Origin: a virus
IMG/VR virus record: IMGVR_UViG_3300042317_000655
Location: 1 to 25,936 of that record
Strand: one strand, 5' to 3'
Length of the DNA stretch: 25,936 nt
This document shows positions 1-25,588 of this stretch, piece by piece. Below the pieces are notes generated by a model. That model was not told the origin of the DNA. It saw nothing but the letters and a program-made list of their open reading frames with translations, and made no database searches. The position numbers and the translations under genes are program-made. Position 1 is the first letter of the stretch; each line of letters starts with the position of its first letter.

Positions 1-111
1 AAGTGCGCGCTGGAATGGGAAAAGGAAATCCGGCATGAATGTAGGTTCAAATCCAAACTCGCCTCCGAGTTGAGATTTCGCGTCTAAGAACTGTTCGTAG
101 GTTTGATTCAT
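1..111 (-). CDS. SNF2/DEAD-type phage helicase, N-terminus only (cut by left edge)
   Basis: Only the first 37 residues are in the window; the frame stays open to base 1. The N-terminus has an early YEQFLDAKSQ helix followed by GFEPTFMPDFLFPFQRAL. From memory, that is the pattern at the start of phage SNF2-like helicases, where a GFEP-x-(W/F)MP-x-x-L-F-x-FQ segment precedes the Walker A motif. The ATPase motifs themselves lie outside the window, so the call rests on this segment alone. The ATG is 4 bases past the stop of the 26-residue gene before it, so it is probably co-transcribed as the last visible gene of the early leftward operon. The likely role is in phage DNA replication or recombination. 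Confidence 0.6.
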   Translation of the reverse strand, partial: MNQTYEQFLDAKSQLGGEFGFEPTFMPDFLFPFQRAL

Positions 112-115
112 AAAG

Positions 116-196
116 TTACTCCTGCAAAAATGTCCGCACGCGGGCGATAAGTTGCTCCTTGGTCTCGCTGTCCGTGTCTGTCAGTTCGAGTTTCAT
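116..196 (-). CDS. 26-residue acidic micro-protein
   Basis: This is a tiny ORF of 26 residues starting MKLELTDTDSETKEQL. Its ATG overlaps the TGA of the preceding gene in an ATGA junction, and it ends four bases before the helicase ATG. It therefore fills the only gap between two genes exactly. It is predicted to be mostly helical, with an acidic N-terminal half. No family is recognised. The tight packing is the main evidence that it is translated; it could instead serve only to couple translation of the helicase to upstream genes. Confidence 0.5.
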   Translation of the reverse strand: MKLELTDTDSETKEQLIARVRTFLQE

Positions 197-483
197 GGCT
201 TTGCTTTGCGTTTCTTGGGTTCGTCGGCAGGCCACGGGATGCGGTTGCGCTCGGCCAAAAATTGGCAGGCTTCGAGTTCGGTGTCGGCGTCGGCTACTTT
301 GTTGCGGCGCATCAAATCGGCCATTGAATACTCATGGGCCAACTCAGTGAACGCCCGGCGCGTGCCGTCCTTCATTGTGATAGTCGCGAAGAAAGCCATC
401 CACGGGTAACGATGCCCCGCGCCTGCCAGCCGATGCGTGGCGACCGAGTTCTCGCGCTTGAATGTAGCGAGGGCCGTGCTCAT
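193..483 (-). CDS. Hypothetical early phage protein, 96 aa
   Basis: The 96-residue protein has a basic C-terminus (ends PKKRKAKP) and a central stretch around residues 26-45 rich in aromatic and beta-type residues (HRYPWMAFFATITMKDGT). This suggests a small beta-sheet fold followed by helices. The ATG overlaps the TGA of the preceding coiled-coil gene (ATGA), and its own TGA overlaps the next start, so it is a link in a translationally coupled chain. I do not recognise a family. It lies beside a helicase and an OB-fold-like gene, so a replication-related accessory role is possible but unproven. Confidence 0.7.
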   Translation of the reverse strand: MSTALATFKRENSVATHRLAGAGHRYPWMAFFATITMKDGTRRAFTELAHEYSMADLMRRNKVADADTELEACQFLAERNRIPWPADEPKKRKAKP

Positions 484-746
484 TGCATCAGGATGCTCTC
501 GGCGTGATTTAGTCGCTCCATCGCGGCGGCGAGGTCTGCGACTAGGCGGCGGTTGGCGTTGCGCAGGTCGGCGTTGTCGGCTTCCGCCTCGGCTGCGTCG
601 GCTTCGGCGGCGCGCAGGCTTTGGCGTGCGTTGTCGCGCTCGGCTTCGGCGGCGCGAAGCTCGCCCATTGCAAGCGCGAGGTCGCGCGATTGGTAGCTGA
701 TTTGGATGCGAAGGGTTTCTAATAGTTCGGCAATTTTTGTGTTCAT
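480..746 (-). CDS. Small coiled-coil protein, 88 aa
   Basis: Almost the whole 88-residue chain is a predicted helix with heptad-like spacing. The part from about residue 27 to 80 is dominated by Ala, Glu, Asp, Arg and Leu (repeated AAEAE and LR units), typical of a dimeric or trimeric coiled coil. There is no membrane segment or signal peptide. It is coupled on both sides by 4-base ATGA overlaps, and GGAGG lies upstream of the start inside the preceding gene, one of the few clear Shine-Dalgarno sequences here. No function is assigned. Confidence 0.7.
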   Translation of the reverse strand: MNTKIAELLETLRIQISYQSRDLALAMGELRAAEAERDNARQSLRAAEADAAEAEADNADLRNANRRLVADLAAAMERLNHAESILMQ

Positions 747-952
747 TTCATTGCCTCCAGTTCCAGCTTTTCCAGCCGATCCTTGGCGTTGCGCATCGTC
801 ACTGTTGCGAATGCAATGGCGAGTCCAGTGTCGTCACCTTCGGATTCGATGCGCTCCAACGTCTCAAGTGCTTCGTCGTATGCGGTGCGGGCGCGCACAA
901 GTTCCGGCGCGGGTGTTTCGGGAGTGTTCAATAGGTCGGGTTGTGTGTTCAT
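743..952 (-). CDS. Hypothetical helical protein, 69 aa
   Basis: The protein begins MNTQPDLLNTPETPAPELVR, a Pro-rich lead-in followed by a helix containing the pattern ALETLERIESEGDD. I chose this ATG because another small gene (957-1055) ends 4 bases before it. A longer form starting at 1006 is possible but would overlap that gene in another frame. The stop overlaps the next ATG (ATGA). The leader lacks a clear SD and is A/C-rich (CACACACTGACACA). No family is recognised. Confidence 0.55.
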   Translation of the reverse strand: MNTQPDLLNTPETPAPELVRARTAYDEALETLERIESEGDDTGLAIAFATVTMRNAKDRLEKLELEAMK

Positions 953-956
953 TGTG

Positions 957-1055
957 TCAGTGTGTGAAAGTGTTTTCCCCGGCGTGCCATCTGGTCGCCC
1001 GCGCATAAACCCAAGTCGGCTTTACTAGCCGCTCCATTTGTGACTTAGCATTCAT
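957..1055 (-). CDS. 32-residue micro-protein
   Basis: This short ORF (starts MNAKSQMERLVKPTWVYARA, ends ENTFTH) fills the gap between the 113-residue gene upstream and the 69-residue gene downstream, with its TGA four bases before the next ATG. It is basic, with two Trp residues. Fit to the gap and direction is the only evidence. No function is proposed. Confidence 0.4.
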   Translation of the reverse strand: MNAKSQMERLVKPTWVYARATRWHAGENTFTH

Positions 1056-1084
1056 GCGTGCAATTTACACGGGAAATTTGTTGG

Positions 1085-1426
1085 CTACTCAGTAGCGGCT
1101 GGCTCGTCGTCACGCCAAACGAGCGACAAAAAACGAGGCTCTGCGTGCATGTCAAAAAAGTCCACGCGCTCCCAATGCGGCACCGATTTACCCCAATAGT
1201 TGCGCGGCGAATACTGCCACACGTCATCGCCGTTTGCGAAGGCCGCTAGAAACTTCATCCGCTCGGCAACCTGCTCGCGACTGAACGGGTCGTGCAGGAA
1301 TGTCTTGAAGTCGTCAAACGTAACTTCGCCGCGCGTCGCCTCGCGTGCGTCGTTTTCGGTGTGGCGTAGCTGCGAGGCGGTCACGCGCTCGTCACGGTCG
1401 CTGATACTGTTGTGAAAGTCTGGCAT
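1085..1426 (-). CDS. Hypothetical phage protein, 113 aa
   Basis: The protein starts MPDFHNSISDRDERVTA and is acidic and mixed alpha/beta. The middle (about residues 40-60) reads DDFKTFLHDPFSREQ and the C-terminal half is rich in Trp and aromatics (VWQYSPRNYWGKSVPHWERV), suggesting a folded globular domain. A GTG at 1441 would add five residues. I prefer the ATG at 1426 because it follows the upstream stop by two bases, with GGGAA about ten bases before it. It lies in the early operon downstream of the OB-fold-like gene. No family is recognised. Confidence 0.65.
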   Translation of the reverse strand: MPDFHNSISDRDERVTASQLRHTENDAREATRGEVTFDDFKTFLHDPFSREQVAERMKFLAAFANGDDVWQYSPRNYWGKSVPHWERVDFFDMHAEPRFLSLVWRDDEPAATE

Positions 1427-1428
1427 GG

Positions 1429-1560
1429 CTAGAGTTCCCACGGCGGGATTTGCGACGCGCCTGCAAATGGCGATTCCGGCTCCTGCTGCCCACCTGCGGG
1501 GACAGGCTCAGGGCGCACGGTGTCGCGCGGGTTGGTTTGTTCTGTGCTAGGTTCAGTCAT
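1429..1560 (-). CDS. 43-residue Pro-rich micro-protein
   Basis: The ATG overlaps the TGA of the 119-residue gene (ATGA) and the frame ends TAG two bases before the next gene's ATG. Composition is Pro, Glu and Gln rich and probably disordered, ending SQIPPWEL. Short disordered proteins with a hydrophobic C-terminal peptide can act as docking adaptors. Here that is only an inference from the tail and from the neighbourhood of an OB-fold-like gene. Confidence 0.5.
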   Translation of the reverse strand: MTEPSTEQTNPRDTVRPEPVPAGGQQEPESPFAGASQIPPWEL

Positions 1561-1916
1561 TGGAGTTTGGTCTTTACGAACGTGATTAGCTTTTCCATTT
1601 GGTCGTCATAAAAGTGGTTGAAAATGCCGTCGCTGCCGAGTTGCTGCCACCAGATATAAAGCACAGCGCGAAGCCGTGTGCCGGGTGACTTGCCGATGCC
1701 GCGCTCGGTCTTGACCTCGACAAGCTCTGCGTCGGGCGTGTCGTGCGGCGTGATGAGCACCGAACAGGCGGTGCCGTGAAGCTGGATTAGCGTTCCGCTT
1801 TCGCTCGGTCGAAGCTCCGGCGTCTCCACCGAAAAGACGACGCTGTGATCCTTGCGGCTGCGCGTCTGCCCCATTTCACAAGATTCCAGCAAGATGGCTT
1901 TGAGTGGCGTGCTCAT
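1557..1916 (-). CDS. Conserved-looking early phage protein, 119 aa
   Basis: The globular protein starts MSTPLKAILLESCEMGQTRS. Two regions stand out: a beta-rich part with FSVETPELRPSESGTLIQLHG (about residues 28-48), and a C-terminal helical part with RLRAVLYIWWQQ and DDQMEKLITFVKTKL. I do not recall a functional name for the family. It directly follows the OB-fold-like gene, with a GC-rich hairpin in the 65-base gap. That arrangement suggests a partner in single-strand DNA handling, but no catalytic motif is visible. Confidence 0.7.
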   Translation of the reverse strand: MSTPLKAILLESCEMGQTRSRKDHSVVFSVETPELRPSESGTLIQLHGTACSVLITPHDTPDAELVEVKTERGIGKSPGTRLRAVLYIWWQQLGSDGIFNHFYDDQMEKLITFVKTKLQ

Positions 1917-1934
1917 AATGTCGTCCGCGTCCGC

Positions 1935-1961
1935 CGCGTCCCGGCCCTGTGCCGAGACGCG
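1935..1961 (-). other. Intergenic RNA hairpin, 11-bp stem
   Basis: On the minus strand the arms CGCGTCTCGGC and GCCGGGACGCG pair over 11 bp around a 5-base loop. One pair is G.U on the minus RNA and would be C.A on the plus RNA, so it only forms fully in the transcribed strand. No U-run follows, so it is not an ordinary terminator. It stands upstream of the gene starting at 1916 and could be an mRNA processing or stability element. Confidence 0.5.
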
Positions 1962-1981
1962 ACGGGGATGCGGGGTGTTGG

Positions 1982-2362
1982 TTAGAGCGGCACGTCGTCG
2001 AAGTCGTCCACCGGAGCGGCAGGCGCGGGCTTTGCTGCTGCCGTGGCGGGCTTTTTGAGGCTCACGCGGATGGCGAGCGTTGTCTTGCCCTGATACTCCA
2101 CGTCGCGAGCGGTCAGAATGACTTGCTTGCCAATCCAGTCGTCCGTCTCGTCACCGTAAAGCTGGCCGATGGTGCCAGCATTGGTCTTGTTGCAGACCAG
2201 TTTTTTCTCCTTGCCCTTGAAGCCGATGACGAGCTTCTGTTCTTTGTCTGCGCCTTGCCCGATTGATTCGAGTTCGACGCTGCTGATGGTGGCGATCACG
2301 TCTCGCCCTTGTAGGTCGTCCGCTTTCAAAAAGCTGGACGGATATGCTTCACTCAGTTTCAT
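1982..2362 (-). CDS. OB-fold-like ssDNA-binding-type protein with acidic SSB-like tail, 126 aa
   Basis: Residues 1-100 form a compact beta-rich domain, opening MKLSEAYPSSFLKADDLQG with the motif NKTNAGTIGQLYGDETDDWIG at 58-78. This pattern is frequent in phage early regions. A Pro/Ala/Lys linker (103-118) leads to a tail ending DDFDDVPL. Bacterial SSB proteins end in a similar acidic tip with hydrophobic residues that recruits replication partners, so tail plus domain suggests an ssDNA-binding or replisome-docking protein. The OB fold is inferred, not shown. The start has no SD; its leader is A/C-rich (AAAAACAAACCA). Confidence 0.65.
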   Translation of the reverse strand: MKLSEAYPSSFLKADDLQGRDVIATISSVELESIGQGADKEQKLVIGFKGKEKKLVCNKTNAGTIGQLYGDETDDWIGKQVILTARDVEYQGKTTLAIRVSLKKPATAAAKPAPAAPVDDFDDVPL

Positions 2363-2440
2363 TGGTTTGTTTTTTCTTGTGCCTGTATGCTCGATGAGCG
2401 GAGGCGGGTTTGTTGTTGTGCCGGTTCTACCGGCTGAAAG

Positions 2441-2632
2441 TTAGGGCAGCAATTCCGGCTGCGCGGCGTCCGGCTCGTCAGGCCGGTAATACTCCACCGC
2501 GATGTCAGCCTCCAATCGTGAGTGCGCGGTGACGAGGAAGTCGCGCCCGCCGTAGCGGATGGCGTATTCCGTCGCGCCTGTTGCGTCGGCGACGCATTGT
2601 ATCGCGCGGGAGTTGATGCGGATGGGGTTCAT
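2441..2632 (-). CDS. Hypothetical protein, 63 aa
   Basis: The protein starts MNPIRINSRAIQCVADATGA and ends EPDAAQPELLP. Predicted structure is a short beta-alpha-beta unit followed by an acidic tail. The ATG overlaps the TGA of the preceding gene (ATGA), with GAGGG upstream as a good SD. I chose this start over a longer in-frame one at 2680, which would intrude far into the upstream gene. No function is recognised. Confidence 0.6.
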   Translation of the reverse strand: MNPIRINSRAIQCVADATGATEYAIRYGGRDFLVTAHSRLEADIAVEYYRPDEPDAAQPELLP

Positions 2633-2895
2633 TTGCCCTCCTTGCCAAGCTCGGCGATGAGCGCGTCGGCGTAGCCACACGCAGCGCGAGCCGTGGCAGC
2701 TTGCAGGTCGGCGGGCTTGTACTCCGCAGCATCGGCGGGCGTCATAAGGCCGATGATGGCTGGCATTGCTTTGGCCGCGATGTATGCGCGCAGGCTCATG
2801 CCGGTAGTCAGGTGCGAGTCGGGAACCGAGAACGACATTTCGGAGCGCACAAACTCCGCGAACATTTTTGATTCTTCGGGCGTCATGTTTTTCAT
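2629..2895 (-). CDS. Hypothetical phage protein, 88 aa
   Basis: The protein begins MKNMTPEESKMFAEFVRSEM. The segment TTGMSLRAYIAAKAMPAIIG (about residues 30-49) and the C-terminal helix ending GYADALIAELGKEGK match a layout I have often seen in uncharacterised phage early proteins: an L-R-x-Y-x-AAKAM helix followed by a Y-A-DA-hydrophobic terminal helix. No function is known to me. An in-frame start at 3030 would add a low-complexity Arg/Pro/His segment and overlap the upstream gene, so ATG 2895 is preferred. Confidence 0.65.
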   Translation of the reverse strand: MKNMTPEESKMFAEFVRSEMSFSVPDSHLTTGMSLRAYIAAKAMPAIIGLMTPADAAEYKPADLQAATARAACGYADALIAELGKEGK

Positions 2896-2912
2896 AGGCG
2901 ACCTTGGTTCGG

Positions 2913-3050
2913 TTATTTGCGAAGGATGAGCCAGCCCGCGACGATGGCGGTTGCTAGCAGTATTGGCGCGAGGCGCATGGTCAGCCGCGCATTGCGGCGG
3001 CGGGTGGCGCGACATTCCGCGCAGTTGCAAGGGGTGGGTGTGTAGCTCAT
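2913..3050 (-). CDS. Small membrane protein with N-terminal CxxC, 45 aa
   Basis: The 45 residues divide into an N-terminal polar part with a Cys cluster (CNCAEC at about 8-13), an Arg-rich positive patch, and one transmembrane helix (about residues 28-42, RLAPILLATAIVAGWLIL) ending LRK. By the positive-inside rule the Cys cluster would face the cytoplasm. The length is well below usual annotation cut-offs. It is preceded by the 24-base hairpin at 3073-3096. Possible roles are membrane anchoring of a partner or superinfection exclusion; there is no specific evidence. Confidence 0.5.
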   Translation of the reverse strand: MSYTPTPCNCAECRATRRRNARLTMRLAPILLATAIVAGWLILRK

Positions 3051-3072
3051 GGTGGTGAGTCTCGCCGGGTAT

Positions 3073-3096
3073 CGCCCGCCCCTTTCGAGGCGAGCG
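3073..3096 (-). other. Intergenic RNA hairpin with GAAA tetraloop
   Basis: On the minus strand CGCTCGCCTC pairs with GGGGCGGGCG over 10 bp closed by a GAAA (GNRA-type) loop. Two of the pairs are G.U and would be mismatched on the plus RNA. It lies in the 64-base gap between the 54- and 45-residue genes, 22 bases before the ATG at 3050. No U-tract follows, so a structural, processing or translational-control role is more likely than termination. Confidence 0.55.
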
Positions 3097-3114
3097 TCAC
3101 CCGACAAGGTAGAG

Positions 3115-3279
3115 TTAGGCTGCGATGCGCGATTCAGCGGCGGCGTAGCTATCAGCGAAGTTCAGATTGAACTCGGCGAGGTCGCGGGCGTCTTGCATCG
3201 GGATTCCGTATGCGGCGGCGATTTTGGAGGCGAGAAGTTCTACATTCTCGATTGTGACGTGCGCTTTGTTGTTTTTCAT
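3115..3279 (-). CDS. Hypothetical protein, 54 aa
   Basis: The protein begins MKNNKAHVTIENVELLASKI, then AAAYGIPMQDARDLAEFNLN, and ends with an Ala/Glu helix. A short strand is followed by three predicted helices; the spacing suggests a small helical DNA-binding or dimerisation unit, but no HTH can be defined. It lies directly downstream of the HTH regulator gene in the same direction. Its start lacks a strong SD. Confidence 0.5.
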   Translation of the reverse strand: MKNNKAHVTIENVELLASKIAAAYGIPMQDARDLAEFNLNFADSYAAAESRIAA

Positions 3280-3362
3280 TTTGTCGGATGATTTGGTTTG
3301 GTTTCGCTCGGCGGGTTGCCTTGCTGGAAAACACTTAAGCGCACGCCGCCGAATCGCGCAAG

Positions 3363-3382
3363 AATTATTTTCAATTATTTTC
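3363..3382. repeat. Tandem 10-bp AT-rich repeat
   Basis: AATTATTTTC occurs twice in immediate tandem (3363-3372 and 3373-3382), flanked by GCGCAA and GCGCAG. It overlaps the last codons of the HTH gene. The 10-bp period places both copies on the same face of the helix, and the AT-rich block is out of keeping with the GC-rich surroundings, so it could be a protein-binding site. Confidence 0.6.
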
Positions 3383-3689
3383 GCGCAGTATTTTTAGCAC
3401 TTCGTAAAGCCTTGAGTTGCGGGGCAGCTACGCCGGATTTTGCCACCGCTCTTTTCCGGTATTCGCCGCGCTTTTTGCCCGCGTCGCTGCGCTTTTTCGG
3501 CGCGAGATTCGTGCGCGATTCCACGATTGCGCGCAGCCCTTTCGCCTCCTGCTCCGTGGGCGTCCAGATGCCATCGAACATGCGGCGCACGTTGCCGTAG
3601 TGCGTGCCGAGCAGCGCGGCGATTCTGCTGATTGCGCCGCGCTTGGGGCGGTTAGTGAGCGGGTCGGTGATGTATTTTTTCCAATTCAT
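3375..3689 (-). CDS. Small helix-turn-helix DNA-binding protein (candidate repressor or Cro-like regulator), 104 aa
   Basis: Residues 19-40 (AISRIAALLGTHYGNVRRMF) fit a helix-turn-helix: a first helix, a turn at LGTHY and a recognition helix. The C-terminal half is very basic (RSDAGKKRGEYRKRAVAKSG and similar) and may be a DNA- or RNA-binding extension. There is no dimerisation or RecA-cleavage domain as in lambda CI, so it is closer in size to Cro or a small repressor. It is transcribed divergently from the plus-strand pair at 3731, and its promoter lies back-to-back with theirs. This placement, at the head of the early leftward operon, is what one expects of an autoregulated switch protein. 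The regulatory role is inferred. Confidence 0.65.
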   Translation of the reverse strand: MNWKKYITDPLTNRPKRGAISRIAALLGTHYGNVRRMFDGIWTPTEQEAKGLRAIVESRTNLAPKKRSDAGKKRGEYRKRAVAKSGVAAPQLKALRSAKNTARK

Positions 3690-3692
3690 GTT

Positions 3693-3721
3693 TTGACTTT
3701 ATTTCGCCGATGTGCTTTTGT
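3693..3721 (+). promoter_or_regulatory. Opposing promoter for the 3731/RusA pair
   Basis: On the plus strand TTGACT (3693-3698), a 17-base spacer and TTTTGT (3716-3721) form a weaker pair interleaved with the minus-strand promoter. The two -35 boxes make an inverted repeat, TTGAC...GTCAA. One bound protein could block both. ATG 3731 is nine bases beyond the -10 box. Confidence 0.4.
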
Positions 3722-3724
3722 CAA
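3696..3724 (-). promoter_or_regulatory. Promoter for the HTH gene, near-leaderless
   Basis: On the minus strand TTGACA (3724-3719), a 17-base spacer and TAAAGT (3701-3696) form a good sigma-70-type pair. The ATG at 3689 begins only seven bases past the -10 box, so the transcript would have almost no leader, as reported for lambda cI transcribed from PRM. Confidence 0.6.
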
Positions 3725-3730
3725 GGCTGC

Positions 3731-3886
3731 ATGAAAAAACACCGCTTCATCGTCGTCGTGAAAACCGACATGGGCCGCGCGCACGCGGCAGGCGCGCTAA
3801 CGGCTGCGCTTGGATGGAGCGCGCCCGGCAGATGCGAATTTCATTTGTTGAAATCAGCACCGAAAAAGAAAAGCGGTGCGAAGTGA
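3731..3886 (+). CDS. 51-residue protein coupled to the resolvase gene
   Basis: The protein begins MKKHRFIVVVKTDMGRAHAA and ends SAPKKKSGAK. The N-terminal strand (HRFIVVVKTD) and Ala-rich helix suggest a small alpha/beta unit, and both ends are basic. Its TGA overlaps the GTG chosen as the RusA start (GTGA), the usual sign of coupled translation. It is the first gene behind the plus-strand promoter. No family is recognised. Confidence 0.5.
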   Translation: MKKHRFIVVVKTDMGRAHAAGALTAALGWSAPGRCEFHLLKSAPKKKSGAK

Positions 3887-4386
3887 CTGCGCTCCCCGCC
3901 AACGCCCGTCTGTGTCACCGCTGCGGAGAGCACTACATTGGCCGCGCGTGCCCGAAGTGCCCGCCTGCGCTCGCCAGCGCCCCGCCAGCGGCTCCGGTTG
4001 CGACGCGCTGTGCGGACGTGCCGAGGCTCGTCTTGCGGCTGACAGGGCAGGTGCGAGGCGGAAAAAACGGAATGGGAGTTACGCGCACCGGACGGCACTA
4101 CGCGAAGCCGACGTTCGCGCGCTGGCGCGATGATGCCGTGCGGCAGATTCGCTGCCAGCTTCCGAGCGGCTGGAAACCGATAGACGTGCCGTGCAACGTG
4201 CGACTGGACTACGTTGCCGGGGACAAGCGGCGTCGCGACATGCCGGCAGTGCTGGACGCCGTGTGGCACGTATTGGAGAAGGCCGGCGTGGTTGCGGACG
4301 ACACGCTGCTGTGGGCGGTGCAGTCCTCGCGTAGCTACAAGGCAGCGCCGGGCGTGACGATTACGTTCTTGGACGGCGTGCGGTGA
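3883..4386 (+). CDS. rusA-like: RusA-type Holliday junction resolvase with N-terminal zinc ribbon, 167 aa
   Basis: RusA-family enzymes cut four-way DNA junctions during phage recombination and replication. The C-terminal domain (about 46-167) has the family's features: GKNGMGVTRTGRHYAKP, the acidic segment KRRRDMPAVLDAVWHVLEKAGVVADDTLL, and Asp residues at 119, 125, 139 and 140 as likely metal ligands. The usual D-x-D-N is here RRDMPAVLD, a small departure. Residues 11-26 form a four-Cys unit (CHRCGEHYIGRACPKC), likely a zinc ribbon, joined by an Ala/Pro linker. I chose the GTG at 3883 because it overlaps the upstream stop and leaves the ribbon intact; longer in-frame starts would overlap the 51-residue gene. 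Confidence 0.75.
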   Translation: MTALPANARLCHRCGEHYIGRACPKCPPALASAPPAAPVATRCADVPRLVLRLTGQVRGGKNGMGVTRTGRHYAKPTFARWRDDAVRQIRCQLPSGWKPIDVPCNVRLDYVAGDKRRRDMPAVLDAVWHVLEKAGVVADDTLLWAVQSSRSYKAAPGVTITFLDGVR

Positions 4387-4387
4387 T

Positions 4388-4639
4388 TCACCACACCGCT
4401 TTCAGTGCCTTCATCTTCCGGCGAATATCACAAAGCCGGTCGTCCGCGTAAAACACAGCCTCGCGCACGCGGCACTCATCGCGAATGACGACGTGCCGCT
4501 CCACGATGCGACGCGACGGCATCGGCGCTGCGTCCATCTTGGATTGCTCCGCGCGCACGCGGCTCCAGCGGATGTTCACGCGCTCTCTAGCTTTTAGACT
4601 CGCGCGGCGTATGCTTTTGATTGTGCTCCACTTGCTCAT
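4388..4639 (-). CDS. Basic hypothetical protein, 83 aa
   Basis: This Arg/Lys-rich protein starts MSKWSTIKSIRRASLKARER, with a central VERHVVIRDECRVREAVFYA and a C-terminal helix. It may bind nucleic acid, judging only by charge. It is the last gene of the leftward accessory operon and ends one base from the RusA stop, so the two operons converge with no room for a terminator between them; antisense read-through would cover both 3' ends. Confidence 0.55.
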   Translation of the reverse strand: MSKWSTIKSIRRASLKARERVNIRWSRVRAEQSKMDAAPMPSRRIVERHVVIRDECRVREAVFYADDRLCDIRRKMKALKAVW

Positions 4640-4666
4640 TTTTCGGTATCGAGTTGAGTCGTATAA

Positions 4667-4753
4667 TTACTGGTTCCCCGACTCAGAGTGCCGAGGGTCG
4701 GCGTTACCCTTCGGAAGACCGGGCACGCATTCCTCGAAGCCGAGCGTTTTCAT
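4667..4753 (-). CDS. 28-residue micro-protein
   Basis: The ATG overlaps the TGA of the 151-residue gene (ATGA), and the ORF reads MKTLGFEECVPGLPKGNADP then eight more residues to TAA, 27 bases before the next gene. The overlap is the main support. No function is proposed. Confidence 0.35.
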   Translation of the reverse strand: MKTLGFEECVPGLPKGNADPRHSESGNQ

Positions 4754-5205
4754 TTCACGACGGTCTGCGATTTCAGTAGTTCGACCGTGTTCTGGAAAGC
4801 GCGCTGGAGAAGTTCATCAGACAGCTTTAGCTCATAGACGCTGCCGCTCCGAGCCATGCCAGCCATCACGCAATCCGCGATGTGCTCCAGCACGTCGAGC
4901 AGGTTCACGTCGTCCGGCACACCATCCGCCATGTTCAAGTGATGCCGATGGATTTTGCGGTGATTGTCCCACCACCCGGTTTGTTTGAAGCCGGTCACGA
5001 AATCCTCGTGAAACCAGTTAATCAGGCTGAGTTTGTCATAGTCATGGCCACCGGCTGCCTCGACCATTTTTGAGACAAAGAAAGCCATTCCCTTGACCAC
5101 GTCGCCGATGTGGACTCGGCTCGATTCAAGAAGCGTTTCCTTTGTAGTGTTGGCGAAGTCGCAGGTTCGCGTATCTGCGGTTGGTGATTTAGTGATTTCG
5201 ATCAT
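4750..5205 (-). CDS. His/Asp-rich phage protein, possible metal-dependent enzyme, 151 aa
   Basis: Candidate metal ligands are spread through the helical protein: H54-D55 in GGHDYDKLSLINWFHEDF, H82, H86, H88 and H89 in NHRKIHRHHL, and D104/E107/H108/D111 in LLDVLEHIADCVMAG. An HD pair with later His and Asp residues recalls HD-domain phosphohydrolases and the uncharacterised phage family annotated DUF5662, but I cannot confirm either. The nearby small genes have Cys pairs. Its ATG overlaps the stop of the preceding 55-residue gene and sits behind an A/C-rich leader (AAACCAACAAACACAC). Confidence 0.6.
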   Translation of the reverse strand: MIEITKSPTADTRTCDFANTTKETLLESSRVHIGDVVKGMAFFVSKMVEAAGGHDYDKLSLINWFHEDFVTGFKQTGWWDNHRKIHRHHLNMADGVPDDVNLLDVLEHIADCVMAGMARSGSVYELKLSDELLQRAFQNTVELLKSQTVVK

Positions 5206-5369
5206 GTGTGTTTGTTGGTTTGGTTTCTAAAAGTCCCCCCGCTCCAAAGAGGCACTCCCGATCCCGCGCCAGTGGTGATTTGAACGGGAGTCAGGGAACC
5301 AGACGCATCAGCAAACACGCCCATTGTCGTGCTGTTGCGCGGGGTGAGGATGTCAGGTGTCGTGCTCAT
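5202..5369 (-). CDS. 55-residue hypothetical protein
   Basis: The protein reads MSTTPDILTPRNSTTMGVFA, followed by a Gly/Ser/Thr-rich part (TGAGSGVPLWSGGTF) and NQTNKHT. Low helix content and Thr/Gly richness look like a short beta or structural peptide rather than an enzyme. Both ends overlap neighbours by 4 bases (ATGA), which supports translation. Unlike its neighbours it contains no Cys. Confidence 0.45.
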   Translation of the reverse strand: MSTTPDILTPRNSTTMGVFADASGSLTPVQITTGAGSGVPLWSGGTFRNQTNKHT

Positions 5370-5629
5370 GGGTTTTGTGTCGGCGTGTTGCTGTGCTCCC
5401 CGTTAGAATGCATTTTAGTCGCAACGCCGTTTTGTAGATTGACCTTGCTTCCGCAGTCGCAGGTGTGCGTGAGTTGTTCGCTCCAGTGTGCATACACATA
5501 CGCCGGATATTTGTGATACCTTCCGCAGTCGCACGTATAGCCGCTATCATCACCGGGCATTCTAACCATGCCAGTGCAGCGAACAGTCTCCTTGCCTGTC
5601 AGTTTTCGAGCGGTTTTCTTGGTCTTCAT
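5366..5629 (-). CDS. Small zinc-finger-like protein, 87 aa
   Basis: The basic N-terminus (MKTKKTARKLTGKETVRCTG) is followed by two CxC pairs, C33/C35 (TCDCGRY) and C57/C59 (TCDCGSK), 22 residues apart, which could hold one zinc ion. The segment between them has several aromatics (YHKYPAYVYAHW). This looks like a compact zinc-binding fold for protein or nucleic-acid contact. A GTG near 5737 in the same frame would add 36 residues beginning GGWEIARRIGKEVGI; I keep the ATG because that extension lacks a clear start signal, but it remains possible. Confidence 0.55.
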   Translation of the reverse strand: MKTKKTARKLTGKETVRCTGMVRMPGDDSGYTCDCGRYHKYPAYVYAHWSEQLTHTCDCGSKVNLQNGVATKMHSNGEHSNTPTQNP

Positions 5630-5743
5630 GTCAGTGGTTTTTGTTCGGTTTCTGTGATTGTGTCGGAGCCTGTCGCTGACCGGCAGCGTTATACCCACTT
5701 CCTTCCCGATCCGGCGCGCTATCTCCCAACCACCCACCCGCCT
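5630..5743. other. 114-base stretch without a convincing gene
   Basis: Between the stop at 5744 and ATG 5629 there is no independent gene I can support. The sequence may encode an N-terminal extension of the zinc-finger-like protein from a GTG near 5737. No promoter or terminator is apparent. Confidence 0.4.
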
Positions 5744-5929
5744 TCACTGGTGCCCTCCATCGTAGCTGTAGTGGTGATCCGAGTCGCCGGGTTGCGGAAT
5801 CCGCGACTCCGGTGGTCGGGATAGCCACTCAACTTGTCTTTTCCAGTATTCGACGTTGGCCTTAGCGACTTCGATTTCGGTTTCGTAGAGCCTGCCATCG
5901 GCGGCTTTGTATGCTTGTATTAGGTTCAT
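5744..5929 (-). CDS. Hypothetical protein, 61 aa
   Basis: The protein begins MNLIQAYKAADGRLYETEIE, continues as a helix (VAKANVEYWKRQVEWLSRPP), and ends in a polar tail with His and Tyr (SDHHYSYDGGHQ). It looks like the first reliable gene of the leftward accessory operon. The ATG is preceded by an A/C-rich leader (AAGTACAACACC) with no SD. No function is recognised. Confidence 0.5.
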   Translation of the reverse strand: MNLIQAYKAADGRLYETEIEVAKANVEYWKRQVEWLSRPPESRIPQPGDSDHHYSYDGGHQ

Positions 5930-6013
5930 GGTGTTGTACTTCCGGGTGTTGCTCCACCCGCTCCCCCACCGCCCGAGCGGCGCGAACGAGCGTTATGGTG
6001 TTCATGTTTTGCA

Positions 6014-6043
6014 CGAATAAACGCAACTTTACCGCGTGTCAAA
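6014..6043 (-). promoter_or_regulatory. Candidate promoter of the leftward accessory operon, containing a TTTGACAC copy
   Basis: TTGACA (6042-6037) is a perfect -35 on the minus strand. The best -10 choices are weak: TATTCG at 17-base spacing or TTTATT at 15. It lies in the divergent gap between the plus-strand genes at 6103 and the minus-strand genes. The -35 box is embedded in the same TTTGACAC word found before late genes, so it might also be a regulator-binding site. Confidence 0.35.
6036..6043 (-). repeat. TTTGACAC motif, copy 1
   Basis: This exact 8-base copy is the only one outside the structural region. The context is ATTTTGACACGCGG, close to the copy at 25581. It coincides with a -35 box. 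Confidence 0.7.
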
Positions 6044-6102
6044 ATAAATCTAAATCTTTTTTGCCTTGCCAGCGCGAGCGATGCGCGGCAACGTGCGCGG
6101 TC

Positions 6103-6342
6103 ATGCCATCCCGCGAGCCATTCACGTTTATTTCATTCCGCGCGGGCGAGCCTGCGTGCGCGGTCGAGCTTCACGCCGATAATCCCGCACTGTGGCAAAC
6201 GCTGTGCGGCGTGAGCCAAAGCCGCACAAGCGGTGCCGTGGTGCGCGGTGCGCGACGGTGCCGAGAGTGCCGTGCGGAGATGCAGCGGCGCGGACGCTAC
6301 ACGCCGAGCGCGCGGAAAATGGCAGGGCACTTTCCCGAATGA
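6103..6342 (+). CDS. Small Cys-containing protein, 79 aa
   Basis: The protein begins MPSREPFTFISFRAGEPACA and has a CRECRAEMQRRGRYTP segment (about residues 53-68) that could be half of a zinc knuckle. It is strongly basic towards the C-terminus. Its TGA overlaps the ATG of the next plus-strand gene (ATGA). The frame is open further upstream but without a good start. The role is unknown; location in a plus-strand cluster with an HNH nuclease suggests nucleic-acid contact. Confidence 0.45.
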   Translation: MPSREPFTFISFRAGEPACAVELHADNPALWQTLCGVSQSRTSGAVVRGARRCRECRAEMQRRGRYTPSARKMAGHFPE

Positions 6343-6509
6343 GCAAGCCATCCAAGAAGCCCGCAAAGTGCCGCGCGTGCGCGAAGCTGGAGCGCGCCCG
6401 CGTTGCGCTCCAAATCATTTCCACGTGGGCCACGTTTGAAGGCGGCGCGGTGTTCAATCGCGAGGACGTGCTGGCCCTCGCCACGAAAGTTTTGCGCGAG
6501 CTGAAATAG
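6339..6509 (+). CDS. Small Cys-containing protein, 56 aa
   Basis: The protein begins MSKPSKKPAKCRACAKLERA, so a CxxC pair sits in a basic N-terminus, followed by a helix-strand-helix ending REDVLALATKVLRELK. The preceding gene has a similar CRxC unit, so the two may be distant relatives or partners sharing one zinc site. The start is fixed by the ATGA overlap. GGGCACTTT lies just upstream, as it also does before the HNH gene. Confidence 0.5.
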   Translation: MSKPSKKPAKCRACAKLERARVALQIISTWATFEGGAVFNREDVLALATKVLRELK

Positions 6510-6516
6510 GGCTTGC

Positions 6517-6652
6517 AAAGTGCCCGCGCTGCGCGGAAGATGCGCCATCGGCAATTCCTGCCGGTAGCTGATTTCAGCCAGCTTCAAAACATTTCCTTGC
6601 CCCGCTTGTGCCGCGCTCTTTCGAGCCGGGCTGAACACAGGCGGGGCACTTT
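6517..6652. repeat. Inverted repeat bracketing the HNH leader, with related copies upstream
   Basis: AAAGTGCCC (6517-6525) and its complement GGGCACTTT (6644-6652) bracket the 149-base gap before the HNH gene. A second pair, GGGCACTTT (6325-6333) and AAAGTGCC (6365-6372), surrounds the start of the 56-residue gene. Inside the gap CCCCGCTTGTG (about 6600-6610) and CACAGGCGGGG (about 6636-6646) can form a long stem with an inner GCTC-TTTC-GAGC hairpin. No gene is seen in the gap. Confidence 0.5.
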
Positions 6653-6658
6653 GATAAA

Positions 6659-7213
6659 ATGCAAATTCATCTAGGTCGCCATGAATACAGAAATGAATAT
6701 CTGCGATGCGAGCATTGGACTGATTTCAGATCCAAAATCGTCGCGAAGTTCCCGCGATGCCAGAAATGCAATGAGCGCCCATCTTTGCATGTCCACCACT
6801 GCAACTACTACCGCCTTTATCGAGAGCGTGAATCTGATGTTTTGGCGCTTTGCCCTCCGTGTCACAAGCTGATTGAAATGGCAAAATCGTTCAAACTTAT
6901 CAGCCAAAATCACGATCAGTTCGCGGCTCGCTCTGTGAATCGAAAACAGATTGACGCACTGCGAAAAAGTGTCGGCACGCTCAGCTTAGAGCAAGCGATC
7001 AAAATCCAACATGCGAGCCTTTACATCCAACGGCGAATCGTAGGGTATTTGAAGCTGCCGTCGTTTCCATCCGACTGGCGCAACATAGTCGGAACCAAGC
7101 TGACCGCGCGGAAGTTTTGGTTTATCCAGATGTCACTTTCTGGAAAACTAAGCGGCGCGCCTCTGCGGAAAAAATCAAAAACTCTACTCAAGATTGTAAA
7201 AATCCACTACTAG
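6659..7213 (+). CDS. HNH-type nuclease with zinc-binding Cys pairs, 184 aa
   Basis: The HNH core is in the first 75 residues: C34-x2-C37 (RCQKC), the catalytic-type H44-V-H46-H47 (LHVHHCNYYR), D60, and C65-x2-C68-H69 (LCPPCHKLI). This is the Cys4-supported HNH layout of phage and homing endonucleases. Residues 90-184 are basic and helical and may be a DNA-binding part. The gene is visibly less GC-rich than its neighbours, and its leader is bounded by inverted repeats, both consistent with a recently acquired selfish gene. A phage packaging or recombination HNH role is the alternative; those are usually beside terminase, which is not the case here. Confidence 0.75.
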   Translation: MQIHLGRHEYRNEYLRCEHWTDFRSKIVAKFPRCQKCNERPSLHVHHCNYYRLYRERESDVLALCPPCHKLIEMAKSFKLISQNHDQFAARSVNRKQIDALRKSVGTLSLEQAIKIQHASLYIQRRIVGYLKLPSFPSDWRNIVGTKLTARKFWFIQMSLSGKLSGAPLRKKSKTLLKIVKIHY

Positions 7214-7252
7214 CTGCCCCGACCGCTCAAGCCTGTCCCGATGCAAGGCTTC

Positions 7253-7298
7253 GCGGACGCTAAACCTGCCGCGTGTATCGTCCGCTCCGAGTTTAGCG
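7253..7298 (+). terminator. Possible terminator with two competing stems after the HNH gene
   Basis: CGCTAAAC (7258-7265) and GTTTAGCG (7291-7298) pair and are followed by AATTTTC, a weak U-tract for a plus-strand transcript. GCGGACG (7253-7259) can instead pair with CGTCCGC (7279-7285), excluding the first stem's outer bases. It sits in the convergent gap between the HNH gene and the end of the late operon. The remainder of 7214-7357 holds no gene I can support. Confidence 0.35.
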
Positions 7299-7357
7299 AA
7301 TTTTCAATTACGGCGCGACTAAAACGCTTACAGGCCGCAGCCTAGCGGCAAAAACAA

Positions 7358-7441
7358 TTACCGCTTCCCGCCGATGCCCGCGCAAATCACGACGAGGCCA
7401 GCGAGGATGAGCACGGCGGCGATGCCGATGGCGAGGCTCAT
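7358..7441 (-). CDS. 27-residue single-span membrane peptide after endolysin
   Basis: The sequence runs MSLAIGIAAVLILAGLVVIC and ends AGIGGKR. Almost the entire peptide is one transmembrane helix with a short basic C-terminus. The ATG overlaps the endolysin TGA (ATGA), so it is likely translated by coupling. It is the last gene of the late transcript. Its size and position suggest a lysis modulator (pinholin-, antiholin- or toxin-like peptide), but no homologue is known to me. Confidence 0.5.
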   Translation of the reverse strand: MSLAIGIAAVLILAGLVVICAGIGGKR

Positions 7442-7995
7442 TGCGTCGCCTGTGCGTGCATGGAATCCCTGCCCCAGAAAGCCCCGGCACTCAGCCAGCC
7501 CTCGCGCGCGAATGCTTCCATCACCGCAAATGGCATCGTCGCGCGGACTGGCCATGCGACGTGGTTGCCGTTGTTGCTCGCGTCGAGGTCAATCGCAGCA
7601 CCACGGGCATGGAGTGACGGCAGAGATCCGCCGCGCATCGGGCGGTTGTTGTAGCAGCCGTCATAGATTTTCACCACGTCCGGCGCGACTGCGTATGCCG
7701 CTGTGAGCGCGCGGGCGAGGCTGGCAGCAACGAGGCGATGGCATCGAATGGTCTTGATGCGCTTGCCCTCGTAATACATCGGCACGGGCGCGGGGAGATT
7801 CACAAGCTGCGACTCGTCACCGGCTGCGCCGTAAAACTTGGTCAGGCTTGCTTGGTCAGACTTCGGCCAAGGGTTTGGCGAGGGCATGAGAGCGCGCAGA
7901 TACTTCTGGCAAGCGGCGATGGATTTCGGCCCCCAAAAACAATCCGGCACGACGCCGATTTTCGACTGAATCGCTTTGATTTCGGTAGAGGTCAC
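7438..7995 (-). CDS. Endolysin, M15-type D-Ala-D-Ala peptidase, 185 aa
   Basis: The C-terminal domain (about 80-185) carries the M15 zinc signature H129-x6-D136 (LHARGAAIDLDA) and the second His in GRDSMHAQATQ (H180, with D177). These are the zinc and catalytic positions of VanY-like L-alanyl-D-glutamate or D-Ala-D-Ala peptidases. The N-terminal 40 residues (IKAIQSKIGVVPDCFWGPKS) resemble a short peptidoglycan-binding repeat. There is no signal peptide, so release depends on the holin. The start is the GTG at 7995, overlapping the lipoprotein stop (GTGA). Confidence 0.85.
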   Translation of the reverse strand: MTSTEIKAIQSKIGVVPDCFWGPKSIAACQKYLRALMPSPNPWPKSDQASLTKFYGAAGDESQLVNLPAPVPMYYEGKRIKTIRCHRLVAASLARALTAAYAVAPDVVKIYDGCYNNRPMRGGSLPSLHARGAAIDLDASNNGNHVAWPVRATMPFAVMEAFAREGWLSAGAFWGRDSMHAQATQ

Positions 7996-8372
7996 TTCCC
8001 ACCGGCAAACGCCGCCTCGCTAAGTGCCGTCGCCACCGCGTTAATCACCGTGGATTTGCTCACGCTGCCCTTCGCCAGAGCCTCCGCCGCGATGCTCTCG
8101 ACGGCCTTGGCGGCTGCGGGATGCCCCGTTGCGGAGCGGACAAGCTGGCCGATGTCTGCCACGTCCACCGCGCCCCACGCGGCCTGCGCTGCGGCGTGCC
8201 CGTAGTCGCTGCCGAGGTTGCCAGCGACAAGCGTGCGGAGTTGCGCCACTGCCACTTTGCCGAGGATGGTTGCCGCGTCACGGCGCACCGCGCGCCAGTC
8301 GGTGCCCGCGCATCCGGTCAGGGCATGGATGAGCGTGGCGACAATGGCAAGGATGATGAGTTGCTTTTTCAT
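7992..8372 (-). CDS. Phage lipoprotein in the lysis block, 126 aa
   Basis: The N-terminus MKKQLIILAIVATLIHALTG-C is a lipoprotein signal with lipobox LTGC and Cys at residue 21. The mature part is Ala-rich and helical with an AAAQAAW segment. Rz1-type outer-membrane spanins are lipoproteins found in this place, but they are usually smaller and Pro-rich. This one may be an unusual outer-membrane spanin or a structural lipoprotein. The ATG overlaps the holin TGA. A lipoprotein here argues for a Gram-negative host. Confidence 0.7.
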   Translation of the reverse strand: MKKQLIILAIVATLIHALTGCAGTDWRAVRRDAATILGKVAVAQLRTLVAGNLGSDYGHAAAQAAWGAVDVADIGQLVRSATGHPAAAKAVESIAAEALAKGSVSKSTVINAVATALSEAAFAGGK

Positions 8373-8590
8373 TGGGGTTTGTTGGTTGAGTCAGGCGTCG
8401 GCGAGGGCGTCGGCGGCGCGAAGTATGCGAGGATTTTCAGCAGCACAGTTGCGATTGCCGAGGCGTAAGTGATGTAAGGCGTCCACTTCGGCGGAAGCAG
8501 TTGGAGGATGTCCTTGTCATAGCTCATGCCCGCGATGATGGTGAGCACGCCAGCGAGTGCGGCGAGTAGGTCGAGGAATCGTTTGTTCAT
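8369..8590 (-). CDS. Candidate holin, 73 aa, two transmembrane helices
   Basis: Two hydrophobic helices are visible, about residues 8-22 (LLAALAGVLTIIAGM) and 41-58 (TYASAIATVLLKILAYF), separated by a short polar turn with PPKW. A Pro/Ser/Thr-rich tail follows (APPTPSPTPDSTNKPQ). This is the topology and size of class II holins, which open the inner membrane for the endolysin. Position immediately upstream of the lipoprotein and endolysin supports it. Both ends overlap neighbours by 4 bases. Confidence 0.65.
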   Translation of the reverse strand: MNKRFLDLLAALAGVLTIIAGMSYDKDILQLLPPKWTPYITYASAIATVLLKILAYFAPPTPSPTPDSTNKPQ

Positions 8591-8880
8591 GGTTTTCGGC
8601 TGATGGCCTCCAAGGTTGCCGCCAACTTATCCTGTGTGCGGATTGAGAGCTGCTGCGACTCGGAGATTTTGGACAGGTTTGATTTAACCTCAGCCATCGT
8701 GGTCTCCACTAATGCCAGCCGAGCGTCTTGCCGAATCATCACCTCTCGCCCCTGCGTCCACACTCCGAGTCCGCCAATGAGCATCACGGCAGCAGTGAGG
8801 ACGTGCCCGAGGTTCACGGTGCCGTCGAATTTCCAACGGCGTGCCTCGGCTCTGTTTTGTTCTTGTTCGGTGTCGCTCAT
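8587..8880 (-). CDS. Membrane-anchored coiled-coil protein of the lysis block, 97 aa
   Basis: Order of parts: acidic cytoplasmic N-terminus (MSDTEQEQNRAEARRWKFDG), one transmembrane helix (about 27-44, LTAAVMLIGGLGVW), then a 50-residue helix with heptad spacing (ARLALVETTMAEVKSNLSKI). A single N-terminal anchor with a periplasmic coil is the layout of inner-membrane spanins (Rz), and a lipoprotein partner lies two genes downstream. It could also be a one-span holin or antiholin. No enzyme motif is seen. Confidence 0.55.
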   Translation of the reverse strand: MSDTEQEQNRAEARRWKFDGTVNLGHVLTAAVMLIGGLGVWTQGREVMIRQDARLALVETTMAEVKSNLSKISESQQLSIRTQDKLAATLEAISRKP

Positions 8881-8884
8881 TGCT

Positions 8885-9361
8885 TCATTTCACGGCGGCG
8901 AGTTGCGCTTCGAGTTCCTTCACACGCGCGGCTTTGGCAGCGGCTTCGCGCGCGGCGAACGGCGCATTGATCGCGGCGGCGAGCGTTGCCAGCGTCGCGC
9001 GTGCGGCGTCATACTTCGCGGAGTTCGCGGCGAGCTTGGCCTGCAAGTCGGCATACTCCGCGTCAATCGCCGCCCAGTCCAGCGCGGCGAGCAATTCGGC
9101 CGCGTGCTTCTGGTCTTGCGCGGTCATTGCGGCGAGTTCGGTAACGGCCTTGTCGCGCGCTGCGTTGGCCGTGGCGATAGCTGCGTCACTCGCGGCCTTG
9201 GCTGTCGCGGCGTCGGCGGCTGCTTTGTCGGCGGCTTCTTTTGCGTCGGCCTGCGCCGCTGCGAGGGCGTCCGCGCCTTCCTTGCGGAGTGCGTCGAGTT
9301 GTGCGGAGATGTCCAACCAGAGTTGGCCGGATTCAGTTTGGATGTCGAATAGTGATTTCAT
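8885..9361 (-). CDS. Ala-rich coiled-coil protein between fibre and lysis genes, 158 aa
   Basis: The protein begins MKSLFDIQTESGQLWLDISA and then is almost entirely Ala/Lys/Asp/Glu helix (units such as AAAQADAKEAADKAAADAAT), ending RVKELEAQLAAVK. There is no membrane segment or signal. The extended helix suggests a fibrous virion or fibre-assembly protein; the neighbouring fibre gene would be a natural partner. The leader is a clear A/C-rich, SD-less example (ACCCACAACCCACAAACCC). Confidence 0.65.
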   Translation of the reverse strand: MKSLFDIQTESGQLWLDISAQLDALRKEGADALAAAQADAKEAADKAAADAATAKAASDAAIATANAARDKAVTELAAMTAQDQKHAAELLAALDWAAIDAEYADLQAKLAANSAKYDAARATLATLAAAINAPFAAREAAAKAARVKELEAQLAAVK

Positions 9362-9379
9362 GGGTTTGTGGGTTGTGGG

Positions 9380-12300: not shown

Positions 12301-12466
12301 TGCTCAGGTTGATCGCCCATGACGTGTCGAGCGCGTAGGGCGTGCCGTCCACCGTCACGTAGAGGTCAACGTCGCAAAGCTCCTGCCGCTTTATGTAGCC
12401 CGTGTCGCAGGTGATTGCGCCCGTGCGAATTTCCCAGTTGAGAGTGATTTTTCGGAGCGTGGCCAT
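9380..12466 (-). CDS. Tail fibre/receptor-binding protein with beta-helix, 1028 aa
   Basis: The N-terminal ~150 residues (MATLRKITLNWEIRTGAITC onward) form a globular domain likely to attach to the tail. A right-handed beta-helix or pectate-lyase-like part follows near residue 340 (IRIGPGTFDGNITLPAGVVL, then RGAGEQFTTINGTI). The rest is Gly/Thr/Ser/Ala-rich repeats of the beta-solenoid type, ending with an SFWNATPIVQPT segment and a short C-terminal helix (VVKALRNAGLLA). I recall that closing pattern from other environmental phage fibres. No catalytic pair for glycan cleavage can be singled out. TTTGACAC lies 12 bases before its ATG. Confidence 0.8.
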   Translation of the reverse strand: MATLRKITLNWEIRTGAITCDTGYIKRQELCDVDLYVTVDGTPYALDTSWAINLSIKPALLGDNAALVAVTTWTASATTGLYQATAQTIGGTALDTYLAANNADTTDDEGNKLVDLDVYYTVSMAMQAKSDTVTVICKPDVGRADDTVPATIIARNDFLVTNGTGLLVNVAAGYAANGAFVAAQSSLAITNATNYIEVTAAGVASVNTTAFTAGSYPLATVVASAGAITANTDLRAWITPKPATSTGLTVGTTAIASGTSGRILYDNAGVLGELPVGTGVATALAINVGSAGAFVTTVPAVVKSNGVTSLFYTPTANTAAARGVALAAAIAACASGDEIRIGPGTFDGNITLPAGVVLRGAGEQFTTINGTITRSSPAQAYSVFDLRASDGNQPAVLTQTWAPQSSAYGSGYNALMWCHNVQLQPDATWTRLSAGRGHRLALENDYQPNDTGAVRQEFNWDLFADGAAGPNVNAARRIFHFEILNDGTRGSNYVYGNFGANGALKSETTDGTPAYLQANSTGDIFGTGSSITRNIQWNISTLPLGADTAGGNIIGGSNNFLNIEPFDQAGYVTFCSAKGSGTYIGSGTAGFFTALTAPANGTLRVTTNGSTLGTVEAATGTFTSTTSLLLGTAGSAVGNIGFRNATSGTTTLAPATGALGTGTVTLPLSGTLATLQGSNTYTGTTNTFTLPTTTGTTTASGIAVAGNSLTTGTGIYAASSSLTSGKLLDLQVSGTAAAASQTALNVATAGANGTSGITTKGAVISNTHTGTTSTNVALELTASGGTTNTALNVTAGAIVLQQSPTKYTTITPGAVGGLVFTLTTDGSNLDANYGITVPGNLTIAGNNGYAAAISATGAIKTTGAVQAGSIGWYNNGNVGFSFSGTTVSTGSSTTVLSVGATTESTTTTTGAIVTAGGLGVVKNVNIGGTLAVTGASTFTGLLTANGGITLGDAQNIAFNTTTGTKIGAATTQKLSFWNATPIVQPTTAVASATVAHAGGGTNIKTDDTFDGYTIAQVVKALRNAGLLA

Positions 12467-12478
12467 GATTTTAGTGCG

Positions 12479-12486
12479 GTGTCAAA
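12479..12486 (-). repeat. TTTGACAC motif, copy 2
   Basis: This copy lies 12 bases upstream of the fibre ATG at 12466. There is no SD between motif and start (CGCACTAAAATC). Context AATTTGACACCGCAC. Confidence 0.75.
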
Positions 12487-12513
12487 TTTGGAATCTGTTT
12501 AGGTGAGCGCGGG

Positions 12514-25137: not shown

Positions 25138-25145
25138 GTGTCAAA
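25138..25145 (-). repeat. TTTGACAC motif, copy 8
   Basis: It directly follows the TAG stop of the decoration gene and lies 12 bases before GTG 25125. Confidence 0.75.
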
Positions 25146-25580: not shown

Positions 25581-25588
25581 GTGTCAAA
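25581..25588 (-). repeat. TTTGACAC motif, copy 9
   Basis: It lies six bases after the stop of the right-edge gene and 12 bases before ATG 25568. An SD (GGTGAGG) lies between motif and start. Confidence 0.75.

Follow-up and report, generated by a model that had tools for sequence, protein, structure and literature searches.

A 41-base phage intergenic region with candidate overlapping, divergent and near-leaderless promoters

Results

We consider it moderately probable that the 41-base gap described here, which lies in a virus record of 25,936 bases (the whole of this stretch is referred to as the window), is a compact overlapping divergent promoter that would be used by the main sigma factor of the host and may be autoregulated by the HTH protein. 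The gap separates the gene of an HTH-like protein from a 51-aa ORF and a RusA-like gene, which together occupy 3731-4386 and run rightward; with frames read by eye, most other genes of the window run leftward. Two promoter-like sites with 17-base spacers, TTGACA-TAAAGT leftward and TTGACT-TTTTGT rightward, interleave over the 32 bases of 3693-3724. Both sites, and the inverted repeat TTGAC...GTCAA formed by their -35 boxes, could be read directly in the window as the original prediction had described them. The features of the region are:

3375..3689, minus strand: HTH-like protein of 104 aa, first gene left of the gap (relatives, alignment, structure model)
3689, minus strand: predicted leftward transcription start at the A of the HTH gene's ATG (leaderless), the seventh base after the -10 box
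3690..3730, no strand: shared intergenic region of 41 bases, common to both promoters (read directly)
3693..3698, plus strand: rightward -35-like box TTGACT, the other strand of AGTCAA (read directly; GTCAA kept in 9/9 rows)
3696..3701, minus strand: leftward -10 box TAAAGT (read directly; invariant in 9/9 rows; 17-base spacer in the window)
3716..3721, plus strand: rightward -10-like box TTTTGT, weak (read directly; 3/6 to consensus; variable in relatives)
3719..3724, minus strand: leftward -35 box TTGACA (read directly; invariant in 9/9 rows)
3731..3886, plus strand: 51-aa ORF, first gene right of the gap (read from frames)
3883..4386, plus strand: RusA-like Holliday junction resolvase of 167 aa (PHROG 34, E 2.9e-7)

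The leftward site

The leftward hexamers match the sigma70 consensus at 6/6 positions of the -35 box and 4/6 of the -10 box. When both strands of the window were scored with a matrix of E. coli frequencies, which assumes the sigma specificity of the host from E. coli and for which we rely on ranks and not on absolute bits, the site came out above all other positions among 51,810 (14.7 bits), and when the local 141 bases were shuffled 3000 times, 0.13% of the shuffles had a site as good.

A protein scan with the HTH protein gave nine loci, and a second scan of the viral contigs, with a profile, returned the same nine contigs. One of these, L002, does not differ from the window in the HTH protein or in the 160 bases that precede it and was left out, giving an alignment of nine rows (the window and eight relatives). 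Protein identity of the relatives is 76-93%, so the conservation is not between distant sequences. The leftward hexamers are invariant in 12/12 columns as against 8/17 columns of the spacer, which measures 17 bases in five rows and 18 in the other four. The gap between the -10 box and the ATG is 6 bases in seven rows; the two others have 8 and 9. By reading, GTCAA is present in 9/9 rows, and its CAA falls beyond the leftward -10 box; inspected by eye, synonymous conservation at the 5' end of the HTH gene did not stand out. From its hexamers, a spacer within 16-18 bases in every row and its conservation, the leftward site thus appears to be a sigma70-type promoter.

Transcription usually starts 6-7 bases from the -10 box. 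In the window 6 bases lie between the leftward -10 box and the ATG at 3689, and with a start codon 6-9 bases beyond the -10 box in all nine rows the leftward promoter is predicted to be leaderless or near-leaderless. The predicted 5' untranslated length, taken from the positions of the boxes, is 0-3 bases; in the definition given in PMC10783764, leaderless mRNAs have a 5' untranslated region of less than 8 nucleotides. The near-leaderless spacing that had been proposed for both start codons therefore stands, with distances from the -10 boxes of 6 and 9 bases in place of the "seven to nine" first given.

The rightward site

The rightward site of the window has a 17-base spacer and 9 bases between its -10 box and the ATG at 3731, so that its mRNA would start at about 3728, some 3 bases before the ATG. 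Its score of 9.6 bits is reached by 26 of the 51,810 positions and in 14.6% of the local shuffles; alone, it is therefore no better than local chance. The -10 box reads TTTTGT, TATTTG or TCTTGT across the nine rows, each 3/6 to consensus, and none has both the A2 and the T6 of a sigma70 -10 element (TTTTGT and TCTTGT lack A2, TATTTG lacks T6). Another plus-strand site scores the same or higher in five of the nine rows (L003, L004, L005, L007 and L009; 9.6-11.5 versus 9.2-9.6 bits). TTTTGT stays 17 bases from the -35 box in the window, L006, L007 and L010. The claim of two promoters thus holds well for the leftward one, which is the best site of the window and is conserved in 9/9 rows, and weakly for the rightward one, with its -10 box at 3/6.

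The mirrored TTGAC pair is itself rare, occurring in 0.13% of local shuffles. The pattern TTGAC-N20..24-GTCAA is found twice in the window (3693 and 9411) versus 0.105 expected per shuffled window. The 9411 pair (plus strand) lies near the 3' end of the frame at 9380-12466, has a like sequence in G005 and in part in G006, and is probably a coding chance. Inverted TTGAC cores need no operator because any two mirrored -35 boxes yield them. As had been predicted, one protein bound here would affect both directions; RNA polymerase itself would serve as well. The name "regulatory switch" is an inferred label.

Flanking genes and probable host

The model of the HTH-like protein has a helical N-terminus and a pLDDT of 69.2, with blocks of 76-86 at residues 11-60. 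The best match in a structure search was CylR2 (Z 5.5 over 53 residues), below the tool's guide of Z 8 and in the noise range; the matches, all with Z of 5.5 or less, are mostly XRE-type HTH chains and also include P22 c2 and YdaS. No PHROG family was found for the protein, and Pfam gave only an unrelated family at 15.7 bits against a cut-off of 32. We assign it as an HTH protein with moderate confidence.

On the other side of the gap, the 51-aa ORF has no PHROG or Pfam match, and the RusA-like protein scores 18.7 bits against Pfam RusA, below the 22.8 cut-off. In L010 a longer RusA-type protein (PHROG 34, E 5.7e-7) begins in place of the small ORF, and in L007 sequence of no assigned family stands where the RusA-like part would be; the gap is kept in both. 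The L007 protein has no PHROG match and in Pfam only a sub-threshold zinc-ribbon match, and we do not call it a resolvase. The RusA-like protein of the window also starts with a possible zinc ribbon (3883-3970, plus strand; Pfam DZR, below cut-off), which is common to it and to L007, where the remaining protein differs.

The only named phage found in a search with the portal protein was Verrucomicrobia phage P8625 (30% identity over 78%). Relatives of the head protein in genome contigs comprise five loci, four in Verrucomicrobiota MAGs and one in an Armatimonadota MAG. Thus a verrucomicrobial host is likely for the window phage, though not proven. Among isolate and MAG genomes, 193 pattern stretches yielded no relative of the HTH protein. 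The phage-record collection gave no DNA match for 3375-4386, a literature search by titles returned nothing on this locus, and the proteins scanned yielded no lysogeny gene. Elsewhere in the window, a glycosyltransferase-like gene (18471-19163, minus strand; PHROG 14775, E 1.9e-29) adjoins a 765-aa frame amid structural genes (18471-21328, minus strand).

A similar layout in a second, unrelated phage group

The bait pattern CTTGACAA-N14..17-WTAAAGTCAA, run over viral contigs, gave 62 stretches in 25 clusters, with nine in the cluster of the window. Because the bait included the leftward promoter, the independent test is limited to the right-hand start. Divergent starts flank two of the 24 other clusters, as against 0.8% of random positions (about 0.2 clusters expected); 22 of the 24 are without them. 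One of the two, L097, is a single stretch with starts on both sides. The other, which we refer to as the terS family, comprises 17 stretches in nine distinct contexts at 35-41% GC. Its right gene is terS-like (PHROG 51, E 5.3e-13, for L093); its left gene is of varying make-up and by eye coiled-coil-like in most contexts. On both sides the start codon lies one base from the motif. In L093 (10231-10265) the boxes read TTGACA-17-TATAAA-6-ATG one way and TTGACT-17-TAAATT-7-ATG the opposite way. Mean identity between contexts is 98% in the motif, 88% in the first 63 bases of the right gene and 48% in those of the left gene. The site had no DNA match in the phage-record collection.

By analogy, the two-way reading of the HTH/RusA gap is made credible by this family, because it is unrelated and repeats the mirrored arrangement, near-leaderless on both sides, with good boxes in each direction. 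The two gaps may be independent cases in which phages reached the same minimal two-way switch more than once, a possibility that we put forward tentatively and hold to be rather doubtful. If it is true, mirrored sigma70 promoters would be packed into about 35-45 bases with each mRNA starting at or within a few bases of its start codon, and start codons, promoters and mutual exclusion would form a single element that lacks a leader and perhaps also a dedicated operator.

Start-spaced words before late genes

The word TTTGACAC, which shares the TTGAC core, occurs nine times in the window versus 0.68 expected, always on the minus strand. Its distance to the next open start is 12 bases in five places and 14, 15, 25 and 30 bases in one each (the last at the 6043 site), so that it sits 12-15 bases before late-gene starts in seven of the nine. 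Seven of the nine HTH-bearing records were scanned for TTTGACAC-N11..16-RTG, and five of these (G003, G004, G005, G006 and G009; 14-41 kb) have no such site and keep the focal region. Three sites were found in G007 and one, of the promoter-like 6043 type, in G008; plain TTTGACAC words number two each in G008 and G009. The word therefore appears to track a late-gene module and not the HTH gene, since HTH-bearing records mostly have no start-spaced copy. We accordingly rejected the proposal that the HTH protein is the common ligand of TTTGACAC, on the records lacking the start-spaced word and on its single strand and fixed distance to start codons. A role as the -35 box of late genes was likewise rejected for the seven words at 12-15 bases from a start, since a -10 box 16-18 bases further on would lie within the gene. 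An oriented word at a mostly fixed distance would suit a start-linked signal, in translation or transcription, and not a dispersed operator.

TTTGAC lies exactly 14 bases before the ATG or GTG of five late genes of the window (first base at 25588, 25145, 18470, 16859 and 12486, minus strand), and 119 permuted hexamers gave a maximum of one such site. At 25145 and 18470 it comes directly after a TAG. The focal site contains a further TTTGAC-N14, at 3692 on the plus strand; the GTG that it precedes, at 3712, has an open long frame in the window, in L007 and in 0/7 of the other aligned relatives and is probably not a real start. Among head-protein relatives the spaced starts number four in L056, two in L061 and two in L062 (permuted maxima 1, 2 and 1), those of L061 and L062 preceding same-length frames and so not being independent, and one in L030 (permuted maximum 2). 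None was found in L031, L035, L047 or P8625, or in the 7-kb L158, whose head protein shares 89% identity over 130 residues. Six HTH-bearing records together have three, with permuted hexamers reaching six. In three MAGs TTTGAC-N14-ATG has 4, 15 and 19 matches versus 1, 5 and 3 for the reversed pattern, which is suggestive of a host signal, one not separated from codon effects.

A separate site at 6005-6043 (minus strand) reads TTGACA-17-TATTCG-8-ATG before a 47-aa ORF and, judged by its boxes, looks like a promoter, unlike the seven start-spaced TTTGACAC words. A like site has 8 bases to an ATG in G008 and is without a close ATG in G007, and three sites of P8625, with TATTGG or TATCTG as the second box, resemble it in form.

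Proposed mechanism and alternatives

In the mechanism that we propose, the strong leftward promoter would give a leaderless or near-leaderless mRNA from the ATG of the small HTH-like regulator that heads the leftward gene run. The weaker rightward promoter, whose -35 box is read from the strand opposite the GTCAA that lies at and behind the leftward -10 box, would serve the 51-aa ORF and the RusA-like resolvase. Because the two RNA polymerase footprints would overlap almost completely, only one direction could be occupied at a time, and the leftward promoter would most likely win early. We infer that the accumulating HTH protein would then repress its own promoter and free the rightward one, turning on the resolvase.

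It is unlikely, although with an appreciable chance of being right, that only the leftward promoter is real, that GTCAA is an operator half-site or a start-region signal, and that transcription of the right genes begins elsewhere, for instance about 20 bases ahead of their ATG from TTTATT/TTTAAT. The poor rightward -10 box and the equal or better plus-strand sites in the five relatives named above speak for such an arrangement. It leaves unaccounted for, however, the invariance of TTGACT, the TTTTGT held at 17 bases in four of the rows, and the good rightward -10 box at the same place in the unrelated terS family. At the other extreme, both sets of boxes might be chance in an AT-richer gap. 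A simple consensus scan of positions 1-13000 of the window found three promoter-like sites versus 3.7 expected and hence no excess, and sites like the rightward one are common locally; the leftward site, by contrast, ranks first in the window and keeps a near-fixed distance to its start codon in 9/9 rows. Chance is already unlikely for the leftward half, and we regard it as exceedingly improbable for the boxes as a whole.

A single operator for an HTH dimer could also produce TTGAC...GTCAA, with the HTH protein binding TTTGACAC as well and so tying the late genes to the switch. The shared TTGAC core, the over-representation of TTTGACAC and the three start-spaced words in the HTH-bearing G007 would fit, but start-spaced copies are missing from 5/7 HTH-bearing records, and the word keeps one orientation and the same 12-base start distance in 5/9 places. 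The inverted repeat, moreover, is not constant among relatives, its internal spacing differing by one base, and at 32-33 bases it would be long for an XRE dimer site. We judge this reading very improbable and retain the overlapping divergent promoter.

Comparison with known systems

Divergent promoters under a small HTH regulator are found in the lambdoid repressor/Cro and the Tn10 and Tn1721 tet regions, and lambda cI transcribed from PRM and Tn1721 tetR are leaderless. The present gap differs from these regions in that it is only 41 bases long, its operators are only putative and the proteins scanned include no recognized lysogeny gene.

In the divergent restriction-modification controllers of the EcoRV type and CfrBI, as PMC5333194 describes them, overlapping core promoters exclude double occupancy by RNA polymerase; the likeness to our gap lies in the divergent genes, the overlapping promoters and the small regulator gene on one side. 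Here, in contrast, no restriction-modification genes were noticed and HTH binding is only putative, and in the same account the EcoRV C transcript is not leaderless. AhdI, a convergent system, has a leaderless C protein transcript (PMC5333194, same account). Bidirectional promoters of E. coli and Salmonella similarly engage RNA polymerase in two orientations on one DNA stretch, with starts 7-25 bp apart, most often 18, and overlapping -10 elements, according to PMC12825309 and PMC10268837. The present sites fall outside the definition given in PMC10268837, with predicted starts at 3689 and 3728 that are 39 bp apart and -10 boxes that do not overlap; unlike in those promoters, each -35 box lies beside or in the -10/start side of the other promoter.

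Overlapping divergent promoters with a small regulator, bidirectional promoters and leaderless regulators are thus already known, and it is the compactness of the 41-base gap that is unusual. What remains of most interest is that the double near-leaderless layout apparently recurs. The second, unrelated phage group suggests a reusable two-way control design in less than 45 bases. The gap would be a small module for how phages of poorly cultured, partly Shine-Dalgarno-scarce bacteria start and choose transcription.

Near-leaderless spacing in related phages

In P8625 an ATG opening a frame of at least 40 codons follows TTGACA by 28-32 bases at five of 20 sites, four of them at exactly 30. The corresponding figure for 179 permuted hexamers was 82/2246; none reached a count of five, and six, all rarer hexamers, reached the same rate. 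By reading, three of the five sites have TATTGG or TATCTG at 17 bases. These TTGACA-17-TATTGG/TATCTG-7-ATG starts and a resolvase gene liken P8625 to the window, but its 52 annotated genes all run one way, and it therefore has no such divergent gap. In six HTH-bearing records TTGACA-N28..32-ATG was found at 17/50 sites versus 281/7506 for permuted hexamers, a count reached by none and a rate reached by one; the focal site itself accounts for six of the 17, the records are related to one another, and no -10-like box accompanies some of the other sites. The window has 2/13, a count that 5/179 permuted hexamers reach, and head-protein relatives show no excess of this spacing (1/40). Some Verrucomicrobia, including Akkermansia muciniphila, are listed as Shine-Dalgarno-scarce in PMC10783764, and such scarcity agrees with the near-leaderless spacing.
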